Positions 17,852-26,261 of a DNA stretch of 39,545 nucleotides are shown in pieces. Numbering within the stretch: position 1 is the first letter of the stretch; the number at the start of each line of letters is the position of its first letter. This DNA comes from Nitrospirota bacterium (lineage in GTDB: Bacteria; Nitrospirota; Nitrospiria; Nitrospirales; UBA8639), in assembly GCA_029864405.1 (NCBI GenBank), contig JAOTTP010000025.1:1-39545 (forward strand), read 5' to 3'. A program made the position numbers and the translations under genes. The notes below the pieces were generated by a model that saw only the letters and a list, made by a program, of their open reading frames with translations, searched no databases and was not told the origin of the DNA.

Positions 17852-20563
17852 TTACTTTTCCTCACTTAAAAAGGCATCTACCGCACTTTGTATCGTGAGC
17901 TGAATCTGTTTCATGGCATCGGAGGCAAGAATTTTCTCTCCCTGGGAATTGGTCACATAAAAGACGTCGGCCACCTGATCTAATCTGGTCCCGATCCTCG
18001 CCATATGAATTGAGAGATCCAACTGAACCAGCGTTTTGGCGATCACAAAGAGCAACCCTTGCTTGTCATCGGCAAAGACATCAATCACCGTATAGGCATC
18101 GGACACCTCATGATCGATATGGACTTCGGTGGGATGCCGGCCCGTAGGAAAGGGCCGGCCGAAAGCCATGCGCCGTCGTCGTTCAACCATTTGGTGAACT
18201 GATTGCCGTCCCTCCACGACCTGTTGAATCTCCCGCGACACCTCCTCCAAACGACTGGCAGGTGGCGGCCCGTCATAATCGGGATCGTAGACCGAAAACA
18301 CATCCCACACCGTGCCATCCTTGAGTGTCATAATTTGCGCTTCCAATACCCGCAATCCCATGGCAGCTAACACACCGGTCACTTGCATAAAAATGCCTGG
18401 CTTGGTCTGTTCGTGCGTGATCAGCACGTACTCCGAAACACCTAAGGCCGTATTGAATCTGGCCTCCACATGAGTCGGCTTGACAGGTAGGGAACGAATG
18501 GCTAAGAGATACGCGGCCATTTGATCAACCGGTGTCGACTGAACATACCGACCAGGAAGTTGTTGGAGTTTGGCATTCACCCAATCCGACCAGTCGGGTT
18601 CAAGAGAATGCCCTTCACCTGGATATTCCCTTAAAATCGCGACAAGTTTCTCTCGAGCTTCGAGGGAAAGATTCTCCTTCCCACGACCAGAATACGATGG
18701 ACCCGTATCCCCAGCCAGCTCTGCATAGGTCAGGGAATACAGTTCGCCTAATAAGGACTCCTTCCATTTCGTCATCACCTCAGGTCCTACCGCTGAAATA
18801 TCTGCAATGGTCAAAATGAACAGCTTCTGAAGTATCTCAACGGTTTTCACCATCCGGGCGAAGGTGACAATCGTTTTGGGATCGTTGAGGTCTCGACGAA
18901 AAGCGGTATGAGACATCTGTAAGTGGTGGCGAACCAGGAAGGCGAGGGCCTGCCGTTCCTTCTCAGATAAACCCAACCGATCAGCCGTTAAGTGGGCAAT
19001 CTCCTGACCGACTTCACTGTGATCCCCAGGACGCCCCTTGCCTAAATCATGCAGCAACAGGGCCAGATGCAAGAGGTCTTTGTCAGCGATGTTCCGGTAG
19101 ACCTCTCCTATCATCCCTGGATGATCCTGCAGACGCTCCGCTTCCCTCACCGCAAGCAGGCTGTGCTCATCGACGGTGTATTTATGGTATTGATTGAACT
19201 GCATGAGACCTCGTACTCTGGAAAAAGCCGGTACCAACTTTTCCAGCAGGCTGGCCTGGTGCATGGCCTCAAGGGTTTGAGCCATCCGCCCAGGGCTTGA
19301 CAGAATGTGTCGAAAAAGCCCACTCACCTGTTCGGTATGAAAGCGCTCATTGGGTATGGTTCCCATGTACTGAGATAATTCATTGAGAATGCGCGAATCG
19401 ATGAGGACCGCTTGACGATGAGAGACCACAAACAACCTGAGAAGCAACATGGGGCTTTCCAGGACCTCGAGTAATTTATCCGATTGAATAGTCAGCCGAT
19501 TTTCTAGAATACGGAAATGCCCCTCAATCACGGGTGGAGGCCACCATCGTCGAACCCGGTCCAACCAGGTTCCTTCCCTGGCTTGATCGAGAAACCGCCG
19601 CCCACGGTCAAACAGCCCCGTCGTATGACGGAAATACACTTGCATAAATTGCTCAACGGCCAATAAATGGGGATGATCCACAAATCCCCATTGCGCAGAG
19701 AGCCGGACCTGATCGTCAAACGTGAGAATATCCTGAGCCCGTCCCGCTTCAAAATGTAAGAAACACCGAACCCGCCAGAGAAATTCCTGTGCTTCCTGCA
19801 ACACTTGATAATCCTGAATGGCAATTATGCCCCGATTCGAGAGTTCCTGAATCGTCCCCGCCTCATACCGAGCGTGACCAACCCATTGCAGCAGATGCAC
19901 ATCCCGAAGCCCACCCTTACTTTTTTTAATATTCGGTTCAAGCATAAAGACGGTCTCACCAAATTTGGCATACTCTCGCTCGCGTTCTTCGATTTTATCC
20001 AGAATAAACCGTTGCGCCCGTTTTTTGATGATCCGACGTTGGAATTTTCGCTGAAATTCTTGAAACACTGGAGCGCTGCCAATAAGAAATCGCGATTCCA
20101 TCAGTGAGGTGCAGGCAGCCAGGTCGGCCTCCGCAATTGTCAGACATTCCGCGAGAGACCGGACACTATGCCCAACTTGAAACCCCAGATCCCAAAGTCG
20201 GTGAAAGACTCCGGCAGAAAGTGCCTCAGCAACTTCCCCTTGATTGCCCTGAGTGAGAATCATGACATCGATATCGGAATACGGCGCTAATTCCCGCCGC
20301 CCATATCCCCCCATGGCCACCAAACAACATTGCTGCCAGCCAGCACGTACACCTGCATTGCCTTGCTGAATGACTTCCCGAAACCGCGCGATCAGTAAGG
20401 CGTCCATGAAATCTGAAAAGGCCTGCGTAATCTCACTCCCGGTCGCCCCTTCAATTAATCGTTGTCGAAGAATCTCCCGTTGTTCCTGGAGAACGTGAAG
20501 CCCCAGGGAGGAGGCCTTGTGGTCTGTCAAACTGGTAGGGGTCAAAGAAGGGTCTTCGCTCAT
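17852..20563 (-). CDS. glnD: Bifunctional uridylyltransferase/uridylyl-removing enzyme, PII regulator
   Basis: The product is 903 residues, the usual GlnD length. The nucleotidyltransferase domain has GGYGRRELAPYSDID (85-99) with the two catalytic acids. The HD domain has LLHDLGKG (H505, D506), which removes UMP. Two ACT domains (about 715-795 and 823-900) bind glutamine. GlnD uridylylates PII when glutamine is low and reverses this when it is high, controlling GlnB/GlnK and thus glutamine synthetase and sigma-54-linked transcription. ATG 20563 is preferred; TTG 20566 directly before it also fits the AGGGAG site. It lies 43 bp after nadE and is probably co-transcribed, so it would share the ANTAR-controlled leader. 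It is convergent with the glycan locus, with no clear terminator in the 85-bp gap. Confidence 0.95.
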   Translation of the reverse strand: MSEDPSLTPTSLTDHKASSLGLHVLQEQREILRQRLIEGATGSEITQAFSDFMDALLIARFREVIQQGNAGVRAGWQQCCLVAMGGYGRRELAPYSDIDVMILTQGNQGEVAEALSAGVFHRLWDLGFQVGHSVRSLAECLTIAEADLAACTSLMESRFLIGSAPVFQEFQRKFQRRIIKKRAQRFILDKIEEREREYAKFGETVFMLEPNIKKSKGGLRDVHLLQWVGHARYEAGTIQELSNRGIIAIQDYQVLQEAQEFLWRVRCFLHFEAGRAQDILTFDDQVRLSAQWGFVDHPHLLAVEQFMQVYFRHTTGLFDRGRRFLDQAREGTWLDRVRRWWPPPVIEGHFRILENRLTIQSDKLLEVLESPMLLLRLFVVSHRQAVLIDSRILNELSQYMGTIPNERFHTEQVSGLFRHILSSPGRMAQTLEAMHQASLLEKLVPAFSRVRGLMQFNQYHKYTVDEHSLLAVREAERLQDHPGMIGEVYRNIADKDLLHLALLLHDLGKGRPGDHSEVGQEIAHLTADRLGLSEKERQALAFLVRHHLQMSHTAFRRDLNDPKTIVTFARMVKTVEILQKLFILTIADISAVGPEVMTKWKESLLGELYSLTYAELAGDTGPSYSGRGKENLSLEAREKLVAILREYPGEGHSLEPDWSDWVNAKLQQLPGRYVQSTPVDQMAAYLLAIRSLPVKPTHVEARFNTALGVSEYVLITHEQTKPGIFMQVTGVLAAMGLRVLEAQIMTLKDGTVWDVFSVYDPDYDGPPPASRLEEVSREIQQVVEGRQSVHQMVERRRRMAFGRPFPTGRHPTEVHIDHEVSDAYTVIDVFADDKQGLLFVIAKTLVQLDLSIHMARIGTRLDQVADVFYVTNSQGEKILASDAMKQIQLTIQSAVDAFLSEEK

Positions 20564-20606
20564 CAAAGGGGACTCCCTGCAACACTGATCATGTCACACA
20601 TTCAGG

Positions 20607-22397
20607 TTACCCTCCCGAAAAATATCGGTTCGTAATCGGCATCCGCCGGTCTTTTCCTAACGCTCTCGAAGTAATTTTAATGCCCACTGGCGCTTGCCGA
20701 CGCTTGTATTCGCTGCGGTCCACCATAGCCATGACGTTACGTACAACATGAGCATCATAGCCCATCTTCACAATCCTGCTCATTGACTCATTGTCCTCGA
20801 CATAGGCTTGTAAGATCGCATCTAACACCGGATATGGGGGGAGGGTGTCCTGATCCGTCTGATCGGGCTTCAACTCAGCCGACGGGGCACGCACCTGAAT
20901 TCTCTCAGGAATGATCACTCGATCAAAATCAGAGCCTCTGTACTCACTTCGCCATCGAGAAAGCTGATACACCTTCGTTTTGGGAACGTCTTTGATGACA
21001 GCAAACCCACCAGCCATATCCCCATACAGCGTGGCATAGCCCACACTCATTTCGCTTTTATTGCCCGTTGTCAGCACTAAATATCCGAACTTATTGGAGA
21101 GGGCCATCAGGAGTGTGCCTCGAATACGGGCTTGCAGGTTTTCTTCCGTCGTATCAGGCTGACATCCCTGGAAGGACTTGCGCAATAGCCGAAGAAAAGC
21201 CTTGAACACGCCTGTCATCGAAATATGACGCAAGTCGATTCCTAGATTTTTTCCTAACTGGCGAGCATCGGCTCGACTTTCCTCAGAGGTATAAGGAGAG
21301 GGCATCATCACACCCTTCACATTGGACGCGCCTAAGGCATCTCGGGCAATCACTGCTGTCAACGCTGAATCAATGCCTCCGCTGATCCCGATGAGCACCT
21401 TCGAGAAGGCATTCTTCCTCACATAATCCCCTACTCCCACCACTAATGCCCGGTATATTTCCTCTAACTCCCCGATTGCCGGTGTGAGCCTTATGACACC
21501 AGGAGCCCTAGCTTTCGGCCACGTCGGTGTCCACCCCATGCGGATCATCGGAATCCGAACATCATCGCCATCAACTCCAGATGCTCTTCCAAGCTCTTTA
21601 GATGTCCGCTTTCGGACTGACGGAATCTGGAGGTCAGTGAGCAAGAGATCTTCCTCAAAGGCTTTTGCTCTCGCGAGCACCAGACCGGTGGAATCCATGA
21701 GGAGACTATTCCCATCAAAGACCAATTCATCCTGCCCCCCGACCATATTGGTATAACTGACCATCACGTCATGAGCTTTCGCTCGAGCCGCTAACATGCG
21801 TTCTCGACTTTGCGTTTTTCCAACGTGATAGGGGGAGGCATTGATGTTGAGAATCAACTGAGCCCCGCCAAGCGTGGCTTGCCGGCTGGCTGGACCATCA
21901 GCAAACCACATGTCTTCACAAATATTGATTCCGATTCGTAACGATCCCAGGCAGTAAACCTGGCTGGTCCGTCCCGGTTGAAAATACCGTTCTTCGTCAA
22001 ACACCCCATAGTTGGGAAGCTTGCATTTGGCATAGGATCTTTTCATGTGGCCATCTGCCAAGATCCACGCAGCATTCAAGGGTTTCCTTGCATCAGGCAC
22101 CGGGTCCCGGATGGGATGTTGAGCGGGACGATCAGGTTCGATCACACTTCCCACCACTGCCATAATCCCCGTCGTGACTTTGGCAATACGGTCCCGCATC
22201 CGACTGATATCGAATAGAAACTTCGGCATGAGGAGAAGATCTTCTGGAGGATACCCACACACGGCCAATTCCGGGAAGACGACCACATCCGCTTTCGCTT
22301 TCTTCGCTTCGCGAATCCACCGACAAATGGCGTGCGTATTCCCTTCAAGGTCACCAACCACCGCATTCATCTGCACCATCGCCAACCGAAGAATCAT
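20607..22397 (-). CDS. nadE: Glutamine-dependent NAD+ synthetase
   Basis: The 596-residue protein has an N-terminal nitrilase-type glutaminase domain (about 1-270), with triad residues E43 in FPELAVCGYP, K126 before LPNYGVFDE, and C160 in GINICEDMW. The C-terminal synthetase domain has the P-loop SGGIDS (339-344) and TGNKSEMSVGYATLYGDMAG. It makes NAD+ from deamido-NAD+, ATP and glutamine, channelling ammonia between domains. The start is fixed by the family N-terminus (RLAMVQMNAVVGDLEGN). The only upstream Shine-Dalgarno-like sequence, AGAGGA, lies in the 3' arm of the terminator hairpin, so translation may also respond to the leader fold. glnD follows after 43 bp. Confidence 0.96.
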   Translation of the reverse strand: MILRLAMVQMNAVVGDLEGNTHAICRWIREAKKAKADVVVFPELAVCGYPPEDLLLMPKFLFDISRMRDRIAKVTTGIMAVVGSVIEPDRPAQHPIRDPVPDARKPLNAAWILADGHMKRSYAKCKLPNYGVFDEERYFQPGRTSQVYCLGSLRIGINICEDMWFADGPASRQATLGGAQLILNINASPYHVGKTQSRERMLAARAKAHDVMVSYTNMVGGQDELVFDGNSLLMDSTGLVLARAKAFEEDLLLTDLQIPSVRKRTSKELGRASGVDGDDVRIPMIRMGWTPTWPKARAPGVIRLTPAIGELEEIYRALVVGVGDYVRKNAFSKVLIGISGGIDSALTAVIARDALGASNVKGVMMPSPYTSEESRADARQLGKNLGIDLRHISMTGVFKAFLRLLRKSFQGCQPDTTEENLQARIRGTLLMALSNKFGYLVLTTGNKSEMSVGYATLYGDMAGGFAVIKDVPKTKVYQLSRWRSEYRGSDFDRVIIPERIQVRAPSAELKPDQTDQDTLPPYPVLDAILQAYVEDNESMSRIVKMGYDAHVVRNVMAMVDRSEYKRRQAPVGIKITSRALGKDRRMPITNRYFSGG

Positions 22398-22400
22398 GTT

Positions 22401-22437
22401 AAAAAAAACGTCCTCTGTCCCAGTGGAACCGAGGACG
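22401..22437 (-). terminator. Intrinsic terminator in the nadE leader
   Basis: Read on the minus strand, CGTCCTC pairs with GAGGACG. Inside it GTTCC pairs with GGGAC around the loop ACT (one G-T wobble), separated by one G-A mismatch. Eight T residues follow directly and end three bases before the nadE ATG. A terminator this close to a start codon points to attenuation control rather than simple gene-end termination. Confidence 0.85.
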
Positions 22438-22484
22438 CCCTTGTCCTTTGAGCTAACATGTTGGAGAAGACGTCGTTGTCACCC
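22432..22484 (-). promoter_or_regulatory. Predicted ANTAR antitermination element (tandem hexaloop hairpins)
   Basis: Two hairpins with six-base loops are visible on the minus strand. The first (22465-22484) has GAC, loop AACGAC, GTC, extended past a T-T mismatch by three G-C or G-T pairs. The second (22432-22447) has a perfect 5-bp stem AGGAC/GTCCT with loop AAGGGC. Both loops have A at position 1 and G at position 4, the bases known to be conserved in ANTAR target RNAs. The second hairpin uses bases of the terminator's 5' arm, so the two structures exclude each other. The ANTAR protein is encoded just upstream. The first stem is weak, which lowers certainty. Confidence 0.7.
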
Positions 22485-22492
22485 TTCAGAAG

Positions 22493-22521
22493 ATTATACA
22501 AGCGATCAAGGACCCGTTCAA
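22493..22521 (-). promoter_or_regulatory. Sigma-70 type promoter for nadE-glnD
   Basis: The -35 box is TTGAAC (22521-22516), the spacer is 17 bp and the -10 box is a perfect TATAAT (22498-22493). Transcription should start near 22486, giving a leader of about 89 nt that opens with the first ANTAR-type hairpin. Confidence 0.8.
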
Positions 22522-22571: not shown

Positions 22572-23825
22572 TTATTGAGTCGCTCGTTGCAGTTCCTCCG
22601 CGAGAATAATCGCATCCGCAATTTCCCTCATGGATTTTCGAAGATTCATGCTCTGTCGTTGCATAAGACGAAACGCCTCAGGCTCTGACAACCCCTTGGA
22701 CGCCATTAAAAACCCTTTGGCGCGCTCGACCAATTTTCGCACTTCAAGGGCCTCTTGCATTTCAAACGACTTTTCCATAAGCCGGGTGTGCTCAATGGCG
22801 ACGGCGGATTGATTGGCAATGGCTTGAAGCGTGGTGACCTCTTCATCTGAAAATGCATGATAACTGGAGGTGTACACATTAATCACCCCAATCGGGTTTT
22901 CTTTCATGAGCATGGGGATGGACAACAAGGAATGCAATCCTTCCTGTTTCGCCAAATCCCGATAAAAATATCCGTCTTCTGCCTTCACATCCGGGACATA
23001 CACCGGATGATGATCCTGCACAGCGCGCCCGCTCATGCTCTGCCCAACCTTCAACGGCGGCTTCCGCCGGTACGCATCGCTCAGGCTTTGGGTGGCAGCA
23101 ATACGAAGTTCCCCCGAAGCTTGGTCAACCAGCATGATCGAGCAAATCTTTGAATTCATTAACTGAGCCGTCATCGTCACAATTAATTGCAGCACATCCT
23201 CTATCAGTCGATTAGAAGCCACCGTTTCCGACACTTGGGAAAGGGTTTCAAGTCGACGCGCTTTTTGCCGCATATCATCGTACAGTCTGGCATTGGCAAT
23301 GGCTCCGCCGACTTGATTGGCAATAGTCAGTAAGAGGGCCAACGTCTCTTCAGCATACCGCTTGGGCCGCTTATGCTGCACATTGATGACTCCGACCATT
23401 TTCCCTTTACTCGTAATCGGGACTGACACAAACGCCTGGTAGCGATCTTCCGGCAGGCGATGAAAAAACTTAAATCTGGCGTCATCACTGGCATTGCGAG
23501 GAATCACCACGGGGACTTTTTCCCGCGCCACCCACCCGGTAATCCCTTCTCCCAATCCGATGGATATCCGGCCGATGAGCCGGGGATGAGGATTTTTCGA
23601 GGCACGCAGAATAAGCTCGTCTGTTGTTTCAGAGATCAAATACAACAGGCAGGCATCCCCCTTCGTCACTTCAACGACCACCTCCACAATTTGCTTTAAT
23701 ACCGTTTCCAGCTCCAACGTACTACTAATGGATTCGCTGATTCGGTGAAGAATCTGCACCTCACGGGTCCGTTCCCGAACAAGGTGCTTCAGATCTTCCA
23801 TGGTCGAAGGACGGGCCTGAGCCAT
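22572..23825 (-). CDS. GAF-GAF-ANTAR transcription antiterminator
   Basis: The 417-residue protein opens with a short coiled-coil-like helix (about 5-30). It continues with two GAF sensor domains (about 25-175 and 190-340) and ends with an ANTAR RNA-binding domain (about 354-417), recognisable by ERAKGFLM, GLSEPEAFRLMQRQSMN and the final helix IADAIILAEEL. ANTAR proteins bind tandem hairpins in leader RNAs and prevent intrinsic termination, often of nitrogen-metabolism genes. GAF domains bind small ligands or sense redox or gases; the ligand here is unknown. The ATG is one base after the aroB stop, so it is translationally linked to aroB. It directly precedes the nadE leader containing a matching RNA element, its likely target. 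Confidence 0.92.
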   Translation of the reverse strand: MAQARPSTMEDLKHLVRERTREVQILHRISESISSTLELETVLKQIVEVVVEVTKGDACLLYLISETTDELILRASKNPHPRLIGRISIGLGEGITGWVAREKVPVVIPRNASDDARFKFFHRLPEDRYQAFVSVPITSKGKMVGVINVQHKRPKRYAEETLALLLTIANQVGGAIANARLYDDMRQKARRLETLSQVSETVASNRLIEDVLQLIVTMTAQLMNSKICSIMLVDQASGELRIAATQSLSDAYRRKPPLKVGQSMSGRAVQDHHPVYVPDVKAEDGYFYRDLAKQEGLHSLLSIPMLMKENPIGVINVYTSSYHAFSDEEVTTLQAIANQSAVAIEHTRLMEKSFEMQEALEVRKLVERAKGFLMASKGLSEPEAFRLMQRQSMNLRKSMREIADAIILAEELQRATQ

Positions 23826-23826
23826 G

Positions 23827-24993
23827 TTATTTTTTCTTGGATAGACGTGGACGGCTCAATGCCTGTGGAGCGTGCTTCAATCGTTTCACACGTGAGGGCT
23901 GGCTGGCAGTGAACCATTGACGAATACGTTGTCGAACCAGGGGAACGACCTTGACCTCACCGATTGTGGTGGGTACCACGCAATTGACTTGACCCTTCAC
24001 GACCTTTTTGTCGTGTTGCATGGCCCCCCAGAGATCCATAAATGTCATCGAGGGCATGGCAATGGGCAACCCGACATCCTGAATCAGGTCACGTTGTCGT
24101 TCCACAATTTCCTTATCACACATCCCTAAAAACTGTGCGATCGCGGCTTCCTGCACCATGCCAATTCCCACCGCTTCGCCATGAATCCAGGTTCTATAGC
24201 GACCCCAGGTTTCCAGTGCATGGCCTACAGTATGCCCATAATTCAGAATGCGCCGGCGTCCCGATTCTCGTTCATCTCCACCCACCACCTCGGCTTTAAT
24301 TTCACAACATCGCCGGATCACTGTAGGGATGACGTCCTCTGCTTGCTCTCGTAAGCCATCAACGTGCTGTTCTAAATATTCAAAAAACTTCTGATCGGCA
24401 ATCATGCCGTACTTAATCACTTCAGCTAACCCTGCTATCCATTCACGCTTTGGAAGGGTTTGCAACGCCTGCGGATCAATGACGACGACACGTGGCTGAT
24501 AAAACGCGCCGATTAAATTTTTCCCTATTGGATGGTTGACCCCGGTTTTTCCACCCACACTGGAGTCCACCTGCGCTACCAATGTCGTCGGCACTTGGAC
24601 AAATGGAACACCGCGCAGGTAGACAGAAGCCGCAAACCCTGCCACATCTCCCACGACCCCCCCGCCTAACGCCAACACCACATCCTGGCGTTCAAGTCGC
24701 TGGGTCACCAGTGCATCCAATATTTTTGACAGCCAGTGCATGGATTTGGCTTGTTCTCCATCAGGAATTATCACAAGAAATGGAGAAAAGCCGGCCTGTT
24801 TTAAGGCTCGGAGCACCACCCGCCCGTAGAGCTCATTGACGACTGGATTGGTCACAATGCCGACTCGCCCGGATAATCCAATATCGTGAAACACACGGCC
24901 AATCTGAGGCAGAATACCGGGTTGGATAAGGACTTGATAGCTCCGATCTCCTAAAGAAACCGGAACGTGATTCGAGGATCCAGAGGTCTTCAT
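23827..24993 (-). CDS. aroB: 3-dehydroquinate synthase
   Basis: The 388-residue enzyme converts DAHP to 3-dehydroquinate, step two of the shikimate pathway, using NAD+ and a metal. Characteristic stretches are LALGGGVVGDVAGFAASVY, PTTLVAQVDSSVGGKTGVN, GKNLIGAFYQP, and the metal-ligand region with RRILNYGHTVGHALE and HGEAVGIGM. The C-terminus carries about 25 extra residues rich in Arg, Lys and Pro beyond the usual end, probably a disordered basic tail. It follows aroC after 79 bp and is followed by the GAF-ANTAR gene with a one-base gap. Confidence 0.96.
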   Translation of the reverse strand: MKTSGSSNHVPVSLGDRSYQVLIQPGILPQIGRVFHDIGLSGRVGIVTNPVVNELYGRVVLRALKQAGFSPFLVIIPDGEQAKSMHWLSKILDALVTQRLERQDVVLALGGGVVGDVAGFAASVYLRGVPFVQVPTTLVAQVDSSVGGKTGVNHPIGKNLIGAFYQPRVVVIDPQALQTLPKREWIAGLAEVIKYGMIADQKFFEYLEQHVDGLREQAEDVIPTVIRRCCEIKAEVVGGDERESGRRRILNYGHTVGHALETWGRYRTWIHGEAVGIGMVQEAAIAQFLGMCDKEIVERQRDLIQDVGLPIAMPSMTFMDLWGAMQHDKKVVKGQVNCVVPTTIGEVKVVPLVRQRIRQWFTASQPSRVKRLKHAPQALSRPRLSKKK

Positions 24994-25072
24994 CTAGCGG
25001 GGGTCACCACAAAACGGTCTCAATACATGAAGCAAAAGAAATCTGCCTCGAAAAGAGCTTAGGTCAAGATGT

Positions 25073-26233
25073 CTAAAACGTACGGACATATTCTTGATAG
25101 GCCTCGAAGTTTCGTTTCATTTCATCCAACGTATCTCCACCAAATTTTTCAATCAGGGCGTTGGCCATTTCATACGCAATCACCGCTTCTCCGACGACGC
25201 CGGCTGCCGGAACAGTACAAATATCTGAACGCTCCACGGTGGCTTCAAACGGTTCTTTCGTTTCAATATCCACACTGTCTTTGGGAGTATAGAGAGTCGC
25301 GATGGGTTTCATGGCCACTCGCAGGACAATCGGTTGCCCATTGGTAATGCCGCCTTCTAACCCTCCAGCATTGTTCGACTTTCTGATAAATTGTCCTGTG
25401 GCTTTGTCAAAATAAATATCGTCGTGCACTTCAGAGCCAAAACGGCGGGCTGACTCAAAGCCCATTCCAATTTCGACCCCCTTCATCGCTTGAATACTCA
25501 TCGCAGCAAATGCCAAGCGAGCACTCAGTCGCCGATCCCATTGAGCATAGGTTCCCAGCCCGATCGGAACGTTCGTGACCACAACTTCAAAAATGCCGCC
25601 CAAGGAGTCCCCTTTATGCTTGGCTGCCCGAATCTGTTCAACCATTTTTTTTGCCGTCTCAGGGTCATGGCATCGTACCTCAGATTGTTCTGCATGTTCA
25701 TACGCCATCAAGGGGTCATTCGGGCTGGGGGCCGCAACTCCTCCAATGTCCATGGTATAACTAACCACCCGCATGTCAAACTGGGCGAGCAACGACTTCG
25801 CCACCCCACCAATGGCCACTCTGATGGCTGTTTCCCTGGCACTGGCCTTTTCCAGCACGTTGCGGATATCCCGATGGCCATATTTGATGGCTCCAACCAA
25901 ATCTGCATGGCCCGGTCGTGGACGAGTCACCACGCGTTCGGTAGAGGGGGGACCAGGTTCGGACGCCATGATGTCTTTCCAGTTTTCCCAATCTTTATTC
26001 CAGATCAACAGCCCTAAGGGATTTCCCAAAGTTTTCCCTTTTCGAACTCCACAAATAAATTCAATCCGGTCTTTTTCAATGCGCATCCGGCCGCCACGAC
26101 CATATCCGCCTTGCCGGCGGATCAAATCGACATTAATCTCTTCGGCCGTGACCGGCAAACCGGACGGAACCCCTTCCACCACCGCCATGAGACCTCTCCC
26201 ATGAGATTCCCCCGCATTTAAATATCTCAACAT
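25073..26233 (-). CDS. aroC: Chorismate synthase
   Basis: The 386-residue enzyme makes chorismate from EPSP with reduced FMN, the last shikimate step. Family signatures are LNAGESHGRGLMAVVEG at the N-terminus, RPGHADLVGAIKYGHRDIRN, EKASARETAIRVAIGG, and a C-terminal ANALIEKFGGD. ATG 26233 is chosen because it matches the family N-terminus and has AAGGA 5 bases upstream; the longer GTG start at 26260 would add nine unconserved residues. A promoter is predicted at 26414-26442. aroB follows, while aroK, common in proteobacterial pil-aro clusters, is absent. Confidence 0.96.
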   Translation of the reverse strand: MLRYLNAGESHGRGLMAVVEGVPSGLPVTAEEINVDLIRRQGGYGRGGRMRIEKDRIEFICGVRKGKTLGNPLGLLIWNKDWENWKDIMASEPGPPSTERVVTRPRPGHADLVGAIKYGHRDIRNVLEKASARETAIRVAIGGVAKSLLAQFDMRVVSYTMDIGGVAAPSPNDPLMAYEHAEQSEVRCHDPETAKKMVEQIRAAKHKGDSLGGIFEVVVTNVPIGLGTYAQWDRRLSARLAFAAMSIQAMKGVEIGMGFESARRFGSEVHDDIYFDKATGQFIRKSNNAGGLEGGITNGQPIVLRVAMKPIATLYTPKDSVDIETKEPFEATVERSDICTVPAAGVVGEAVIAYEMANALIEKFGGDTLDEMKRNFEAYQEYVRTF

Positions 26234-26261
26234 ATTATTCCTTTTGGCCGGATTAAACACT

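Follow-up and report, generated by a model that had tools for sequence, protein, structure and literature searches.

The window, that is, the whole stretch of 39,545 nucleotides analyzed here from a Nitrospirota bacterium, contains on its minus strand, in this order, a gene for a GAF-GAF-ANTAR protein, a short leader, nadE, and glnD. The first gene (22572..23825; 417 aa) encodes a predicted antiterminator with Pfam matches to GAF_2/GAF and ANTAR (PF03861, 1.1e-20). Its ANTAR domain scores 73.6 bits against the curated PF03861 cut-off of 27.3, and it is the only ANTAR match in its own genome, which is 66% complete. The product of nadE (20607..22397) is a glutamine-dependent NAD synthetase, recognized by the Pfam domains CN_hydrolase and NAD_synthase and by NCBIfam NF010588 (718.8 bits; cut-off 479). 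That of glnD (17852..20566) is a PII uridylyltransferase, recognized by Pfam and by TIGR01693 (695.3 bits; cut-off 519.4). A gap of 40 bases separates these two genes, and glnD is presumably co-transcribed with nadE. The ANTAR gene itself is preceded in the window by aroB and aroC (span 22572-26260), and an aroB-like frame recognized by eye also lies upstream of the ANTAR gene of N. moscoviensis (L089).

A predicted sigma-70 type promoter (22493..22521, minus strand) consists of TTGAAC (22521-22516), a 17-base spacer, and TATAAT (22498-22493), with 50 bases between the end of the ANTAR gene and the -35 box. Promoter boxes of a similar kind were seen by eye in the gaps of close relatives. From a predicted transcription start near 22486, the leader extends over 89 nt to the nadE ATG at 22397. 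All of its elements lie on the minus strand. The first hairpin, P1 (22469..22480; GAC-AACGAC-GTC), has three contiguous pairs, and RNAfold permits outer GGG/UCC pairs across an internal loop (22463-22484). The second hairpin, P2 (22432..22447; AGGAC-AAGGGC-GTCCT), has five pairs and a predicted stability of -6.3 kcal/mol, and follows P1 after a linker of about 21 nt. Both hairpins thus have at least three pairs and a six-base loop with A at position 1 and G at position 4 (an A1/G4 hexaloop). P2 further overlaps an intrinsic terminator (22437-22401), whose 5' arm includes the 3' arm of P2. The terminator stem (22409..22437) reaches -22.3 kcal/mol, a stability equaled by 0 of 200 shuffles, and its T8 tract (22401..22408) ends three bases short of the nadE ATG. 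A simple terminator scan of the window did not return this terminator. The sequence-only reading had described the promoter, the leader of about 89 nt, both hairpin loops, the T8 tract, and the 50-base gap, and every coordinate proved right; its claim that the second hairpin overlaps the 5' arm of the terminator also holds, as the 3' arm of P2 lies inside the 22437-22409 stem.

The full grammar of two A1/G4 hexaloops and an overlapping terminator occurs once in the window when both strands are counted, compared with 0.083 occurrences per shuffled window (60 shuffles), and in none of 5000 shuffles of the 121-base leader. Dual hexaloops without a terminator are no rarity, with 11 in the window compared with 11.1 in the shuffles, and 66 occurrences among the 5000 leader shuffles. 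P1 of the window taken alone is as stable as its shuffles (z 0.21), and the whole 90-nt leader folds barely better than shuffled sequences (z -1.10). Because dual hexaloops are frequent by chance and P1 of the window is weak, conservation in relatives decides the case.

The ANTAR domain was compared with that of EutV by a gapless alignment, for which a two-residue numbering offset to PMC8934654 was set in this analysis. Among the 11 RNA-contact residues of EutV, seven are identical and two are replaced conservatively (Lys147 to Arg, Tyr164 to Phe), and Arg168 and Arg177 are lost (to Gln and Ser, respectively). Tyr164 of EutV is reported to stack on G4 of the loop, and the structure has contact with G4 and none specific with A1 (PMC8934654), which agrees with the tolerance of A or G at loop position 1 described below. 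For the sensor part, the first GAF domain is nearest to the GAF domain of PtsP/EI-Ntr (PDB 3ci6, 6.6e-25). It also matches NCBIfam NF008283 over residues 26-188 (2.2e-40), far under the whole-protein cut-off, and is similar to the GAF domain of NifA (8.8e-27). Glutamine bound to the GAF domain of EI-Ntr is reported to inhibit autophosphorylation (PMC4848567), and the GAF domain of Azotobacter vinelandii NifA is reported to bind 2-oxoglutarate (PMC8219145). By analogy with these proteins, our guess is that the signal for the GAF domains may be nitrogen status.

An ANTAR-protein scan of named genome contigs yielded 39 loci, one labelled Nitrospinota and the rest carrying Nitrospirota names. In 30 of these loci, nadE lies directly behind the ANTAR gene; 28 were recognized from a motif, and L033 and L035 were assigned by eye. 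In all 30 loci and in the window (31/31), the gap contains a P2-type hexaloop with G4, and P1 is also present in 26 of these 31. P1 is degenerate in the nadE leaders of L011, L018, L021, L039, and L040, and also in those of the genomes G083, G099, G151, G155, and G157; the nadE leader of G143 has no convincing P1. Locus L023 has nadE 0.9 kb behind the ANTAR gene, with P2 and a terminator, and eight loci (L022 and L024-L030) have no nadE within the 0 to 4 kb of sequence available behind the ANTAR gene. When 20 of the 31 leaders were aligned, the conserved columns were those of the loops, the closing pairs, P2, the terminator, and the T tract, and the linker was variable in sequence as well as in length. 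The terminator pairing of the nadE leaders beats all 500 shuffles. In a soil clade (L031-L037), three hexaloops and two terminators are arranged in series between the ANTAR gene and nadE, forming two successive attenuators, and 18 of the 21 loops begin with G.

The element is also found where the ANTAR gene is distant. In N. moscoviensis, a urtA-like gene lies behind the ANTAR gene, and nadE with a complete element is found 10.8 kb downstream. In G145, G135, G133, and G128, a distance of 14.6-18.0 kb separates the ANTAR domain from nadE, yet the nadE leader has the hexaloop and the T tract. The element travels with its target, as expected of a regulatory site. The comparative checks named in the sequence-only reading turned out mostly in its favor: the hairpins and the terminator are conserved in relatives, and they also accompany nadE genes far from the ANTAR gene. 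Its suggestion that the stems should co-vary fared less evenly: within the nadE leaders covariation is not significant, P1 and P2 varying too little, and P1 covaries across the leaders of several genes. Over 17 such leaders there are 16 double-sided cells for P1 compared with 4.3 in shuffles, and the covariation score is 0.301 compared with 0.142; none of 500 shuffles reaches either the score or the cell count, in a test that leans towards structure because some of the rows came from a structural model search.

A first covariance model (R1), built from 19 nadE leaders and searched in 12 genomes, matched leaders of porin and urtA-like genes as well as those of nadE. A second model (R2), built from the 17-leader set with no terminator in the model, was run on 16 genomes, of which 10 were shared with the R1 search and none was that of L011, and on 48 genomes of the phylum. 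In each genome, R2 was applied to 112 to 150 candidates out of some hundreds from a first screen, so that absences are no proof. Among its 68 matches with E up to 1e-3 (25 + 43), 49 strong elements were examined; L121 and L148 were dropped as repeats of L060 and L072 at the same places, apparently from the same genome, and 17 others are outside the count. Fourteen of the 49 are rows of R2, and several others are near-identical relatives. A terminator overlapping P2 is present in 47 of the 49, including all 35 of those outside the model. Position 4 is G, a base favored by R2, in all 98 loops; at position 1, 81 loops have A and 17 have G. The distance from loop start to loop start ranges from 31 to 56 bases.

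The genes downstream of these elements, called by BLASTP against reference proteins or by eye, are nadE (19), a BBP2 porin (16), a second porin (5), urtA-like genes (2), and amt (1), with six left without assignment; accordingly, 43 of the 49 strong matches precede nadE, porin, urtA, or amt genes. In G009, the BBP2 porin heads a porin-amtB-PII-amtB-glnA cluster (Pfam), and the gene order is similar in G010 and G011 as judged by length and sequence. G008 has porin-amt-PII-glnD-glnA (glnD and glnA by Pfam, the others by eye). In G011, the second porin heads urtA (Pfam), followed by urtB-like to urease-like genes (by eye). Weaker matches (E 0.007-0.18) whose grammar is similar stand before the gene of an NMT1-type binding protein in N. 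moscoviensis and G017, and before amt in N. moscoviensis. The own genome (66% complete) has the nadE element as its sole convincing one, and no second was found; a porin leader is not visible there because the amtB-glnA contig starts inside the operon. Its weak matches L050, L092, and L093 were rejected, as the stretches inspected have no dual hairpin with a terminator. One further dual-hexaloop leader (L111, G018:C74; E 0.16) precedes a gene for a sigma-54 activator with a Fis-type HTH, hinting at a regulatory cascade.

The distribution of the element follows that of the ANTAR gene. In a sample of the phylum, the 27 genomes of the order of the window that are listed as ANTAR-positive (including its own, G000) have one ANTAR match each, such that no other ANTAR partner was seen. 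Within the order, R2 matches (E up to 0.05) were found in 26 of 26 ANTAR-positive genomes, among which G126 appears to be the same as G008, whose leaders are in R2, compared with 0 of 10 sampled genomes without an ANTAR gene. Outside the order, matches were found in neither of two ANTAR-positive genomes (G137 and G157) and in one of ten ANTAR-less genomes (G023); the latter match (E 0.018) was rejected, since L145 shows no terminator behind it. G157 has P2 and a T tract at nadE nonetheless. When the nadE leaders were inspected, with G137 omitted because of its weak nadE match, a P2 hexaloop with a T6 run was present in 13 of 16 ANTAR-positive genomes (including G157), the other three being G027, G095, and G103, compared with none of 11 without an ANTAR gene, of which ten belong to the order and one is G149. 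The Fisher values, 3.9e-9 for the order and 0.001 within the genus, overstate the independent evidence because the loss may have been a single one. The covariance-model search proposed in the sequence-only reading thus connects the element with further nitrogen genes and with the occurrence of an ANTAR gene.

The ten ANTAR-less genomes of the order (G045, G054, G061, G068, G088, G109, G115, G120, G123, and G165) all have ammonia monooxygenase (AMO). AMO is present in 0 of 4 ANTAR-positive genomes of that same genus. The AMO-positive G126 and G153, which belong to another genus, keep the ANTAR gene and have R2 matches. According to PMC6311188, comammox clade A has Rh-type ammonium transporters, and clade B and canonical Nitrospira have Amt; a nitrogen cluster, with NadE and GlnD named in its figure legend, is retained in CG24E, a bin of clade B. 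We infer that the ten ANTAR-less genomes belong to comammox clade A. G008 is the record of CG24E and carries the element, which places the loss of the ANTAR system probably in the clade A line, where it perhaps occurred once.

The leader anatomy, the presence of the element at nadE whatever the gene order, the similar leaders at porin-amtB-PII-glnA, urt, and amt genes, and the co-occurrence with an ANTAR gene are all observed in the sequences. They support nadE-glnD as one of several predicted targets in a nitrogen regulon of the GAF-GAF-ANTAR protein. The sequence-only reading, which had proposed ANTAR control of nadE-glnD, is supported by this comparison and was too narrow in its choice of target. 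We consider it very probable that the mechanism is ANTAR antitermination, in which the GAF-GAF-ANTAR protein binds the hairpin pair of the nadE leader and prevents the terminator, allowing read-through into nadE-glnD. In the resting state, transcription of the leader would stop near 22401. As judged from EutV, NasR, and AmiR, the protein would bind P1 and P2 as a dimer, the terminator would be prevented, and the polymerase would read on into nadE and glnD. The trigger, at a guess, would be nitrogen status read by the GAF domains. Under nitrogen shortage, read-through would then provide the cell with NAD synthetase and with the enzyme that modifies PII, and at other loci of the genome it would provide uptake of ammonium and urea.

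It is improbable that the control by ANTAR protein and RNA acts on translation, or on translation and termination together. As seen by eye, GAGGA in the 3' arm of the terminator is the sole ribosome-site-like sequence ahead of the nadE ATG in the leader of the window, so that freeing this terminator arm would open translation too, and a translational component is possible wherever the GAGGA of the terminator arm is the only such site. Hexaloops occur without a terminator in L070 and L072, both urtA leaders, and in one amt leader of N. moscoviensis, and Ramesh et al. (PMC3369931) mention matches near ribosome sites. However, a terminator with a T tract accompanies 47 of the 49 elements, and the R2 match at nadE of N. 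moscoviensis lies about 150 bases from the start codon, which is too distant for such an action. The N. moscoviensis amt site (L089 18084-18128), with two hexaloops and no terminator upstream of a 322-aa frame beside amt, is possibly a translational ANTAR site.

Still less probable is that the T8 hairpin merely terminates the upstream aroB-ANTAR transcript, with nadE expressed otherwise and the hexaloops being by-products of a G+C-rich stem. This explanation gains from the position of the terminator behind the ANTAR gene, from its folding well by itself, from the chance frequency of dual hexaloops without a terminator, and from the ANTAR-positive genomes G027, G095, and G103, in which nadE is close behind the ANTAR gene and the element is absent. 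It does not account for the promoter-like site between the ANTAR gene and the hairpins, for elements at nadE genes far from the ANTAR gene, or for elements with a covarying P1 before other operons. In addition, the nadE leaders of the ten ANTAR-less genomes have neither a C-G-closed hexaloop nor a T6 run.

That the leader belongs to a different family of attenuators, for example one under PyrR-type pyrimidine control, is hardly credible: the sub-threshold Rfam matches to PyrR (21.1 bits against a gathering score of 54, E 0.55) and narK (19 bits against one of 43.2, E 0.11) that speak for it are both under the cut-off, Rfam at the gathering threshold finds nothing in the window, neither family matches any of 11 other loci with E up to 1, the PyrR alignment is mostly over the terminator, and the narK consensus with its two A1/G4 hexaloops is likely a cousin and no competitor.

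ANTAR antitermination, as favored here, has close precedents. The eut leaders of Enterococcus faecalis, bound by EutV (PMC3369931; PMC8934654), have the same A1/G4 dual hexaloop and overlap of P2 with the terminator, and most RNA-contact residues of EutV appear to recur in the ANTAR domain of the window. However, the sensor here consists of two GAF domains in place of a phosphorylated receiver, 17 of the 98 loops start with G, and the predicted targets are nadE-glnD and genes for nitrogen uptake. At about 21 nt, the linker also exceeds the 5-12 nt of E. faecalis, where a linker of 14 nt or an addition of 20 nt abolished or cut induction. The general definition of the dual hexaloop permits a variable linker (PMC3369931), such that 21 nt deviates from EutV and not from the family. 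The linker, together with the loss of P1 in several nadE leaders, is the main deviation from EutV. NasR at the nasF leader of Klebsiella and AmiR at the amiE leader of Pseudomonas are likewise nearby-encoded ANTAR antiterminators of nitrogen-related operons (PMC3369931), with other sensor domains; those were characterized at a single locus each, whereas the element here is found at several operons. A link of NAD synthesis to nitrogen status is also known from the control of NadE activity by PII, and PII-nadE gene islands include Nitrospirae; in the accessible part of that work (PMC7196632), the control is at the protein level and involves no ANTAR protein, unlike the transcriptional control proposed here.

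ANTAR control of nitrogen genes in general is already known. The sequence-only reading had described nadE-glnD as an unfamiliar ANTAR target, and the literature searched, with subscription papers mostly outside it, likewise describes neither ANTAR control of nadE nor an ANTAR regulon in Nitrospira. Neither nadE nor Nitrospira appears in the main texts of PMC3369931 and PMC8164766, the 2012 supplement (1902 genomes) being outside this word search, and no named regulator of nitrogen assimilation in Nitrospira was found in the literature searched. The GAF-ANTAR architecture was called uncharacterized in 2012 (PMC3369931). The system would therefore be a member of ANTAR antitermination with new targets and with a sensor class that has no described RNA regulon in the literature searched.

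Nitrospira have a central role in nitrification, both in water treatment and in soils. The comparison provides one candidate regulator, a list of predicted RNA targets, a cultured species for tests (N. moscoviensis), and a natural loss. If the prediction is true, a GAF-ANTAR protein would for the first time have a predicted regulon, and NAD synthesis would be tied to nitrogen control at the level of transcription. Should the stops be overridden as predicted, the neighboring sensor protein would likely be a master switch for nitrogen supply. More tentatively, and with somewhat more doubt than belief on our part, the GAF-GAF-ANTAR protein may be the master nitrogen switch of nitrite-oxidizing Nitrospira, a lone metabolite-sensing antiterminator without a kinase partner. 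As such, it might open nadE, glnD, PII, glutamine synthetase, and the importers of ammonium, urea, nitrate, and nitrite together, and might have been lost along with every one of its RNA targets in a single comammox lineage when ammonia came to serve as the fuel.

Finally, the Rfam narK RNA (RF03032) has a consensus with two A1/G4 hexaloops that align to P1 and P2, but it scores 19 bits against its gathering threshold of 43.2 and has no match in the 11 other regulon loci. In its alignment to 22432-22515 of the window (minus strand), the consensus has the hexaloops AACGGC and AAAGAC; Rfam assigns pairs to the first hairpin and none to the second. The narK RNA may thus be an unrecognized ANTAR target.
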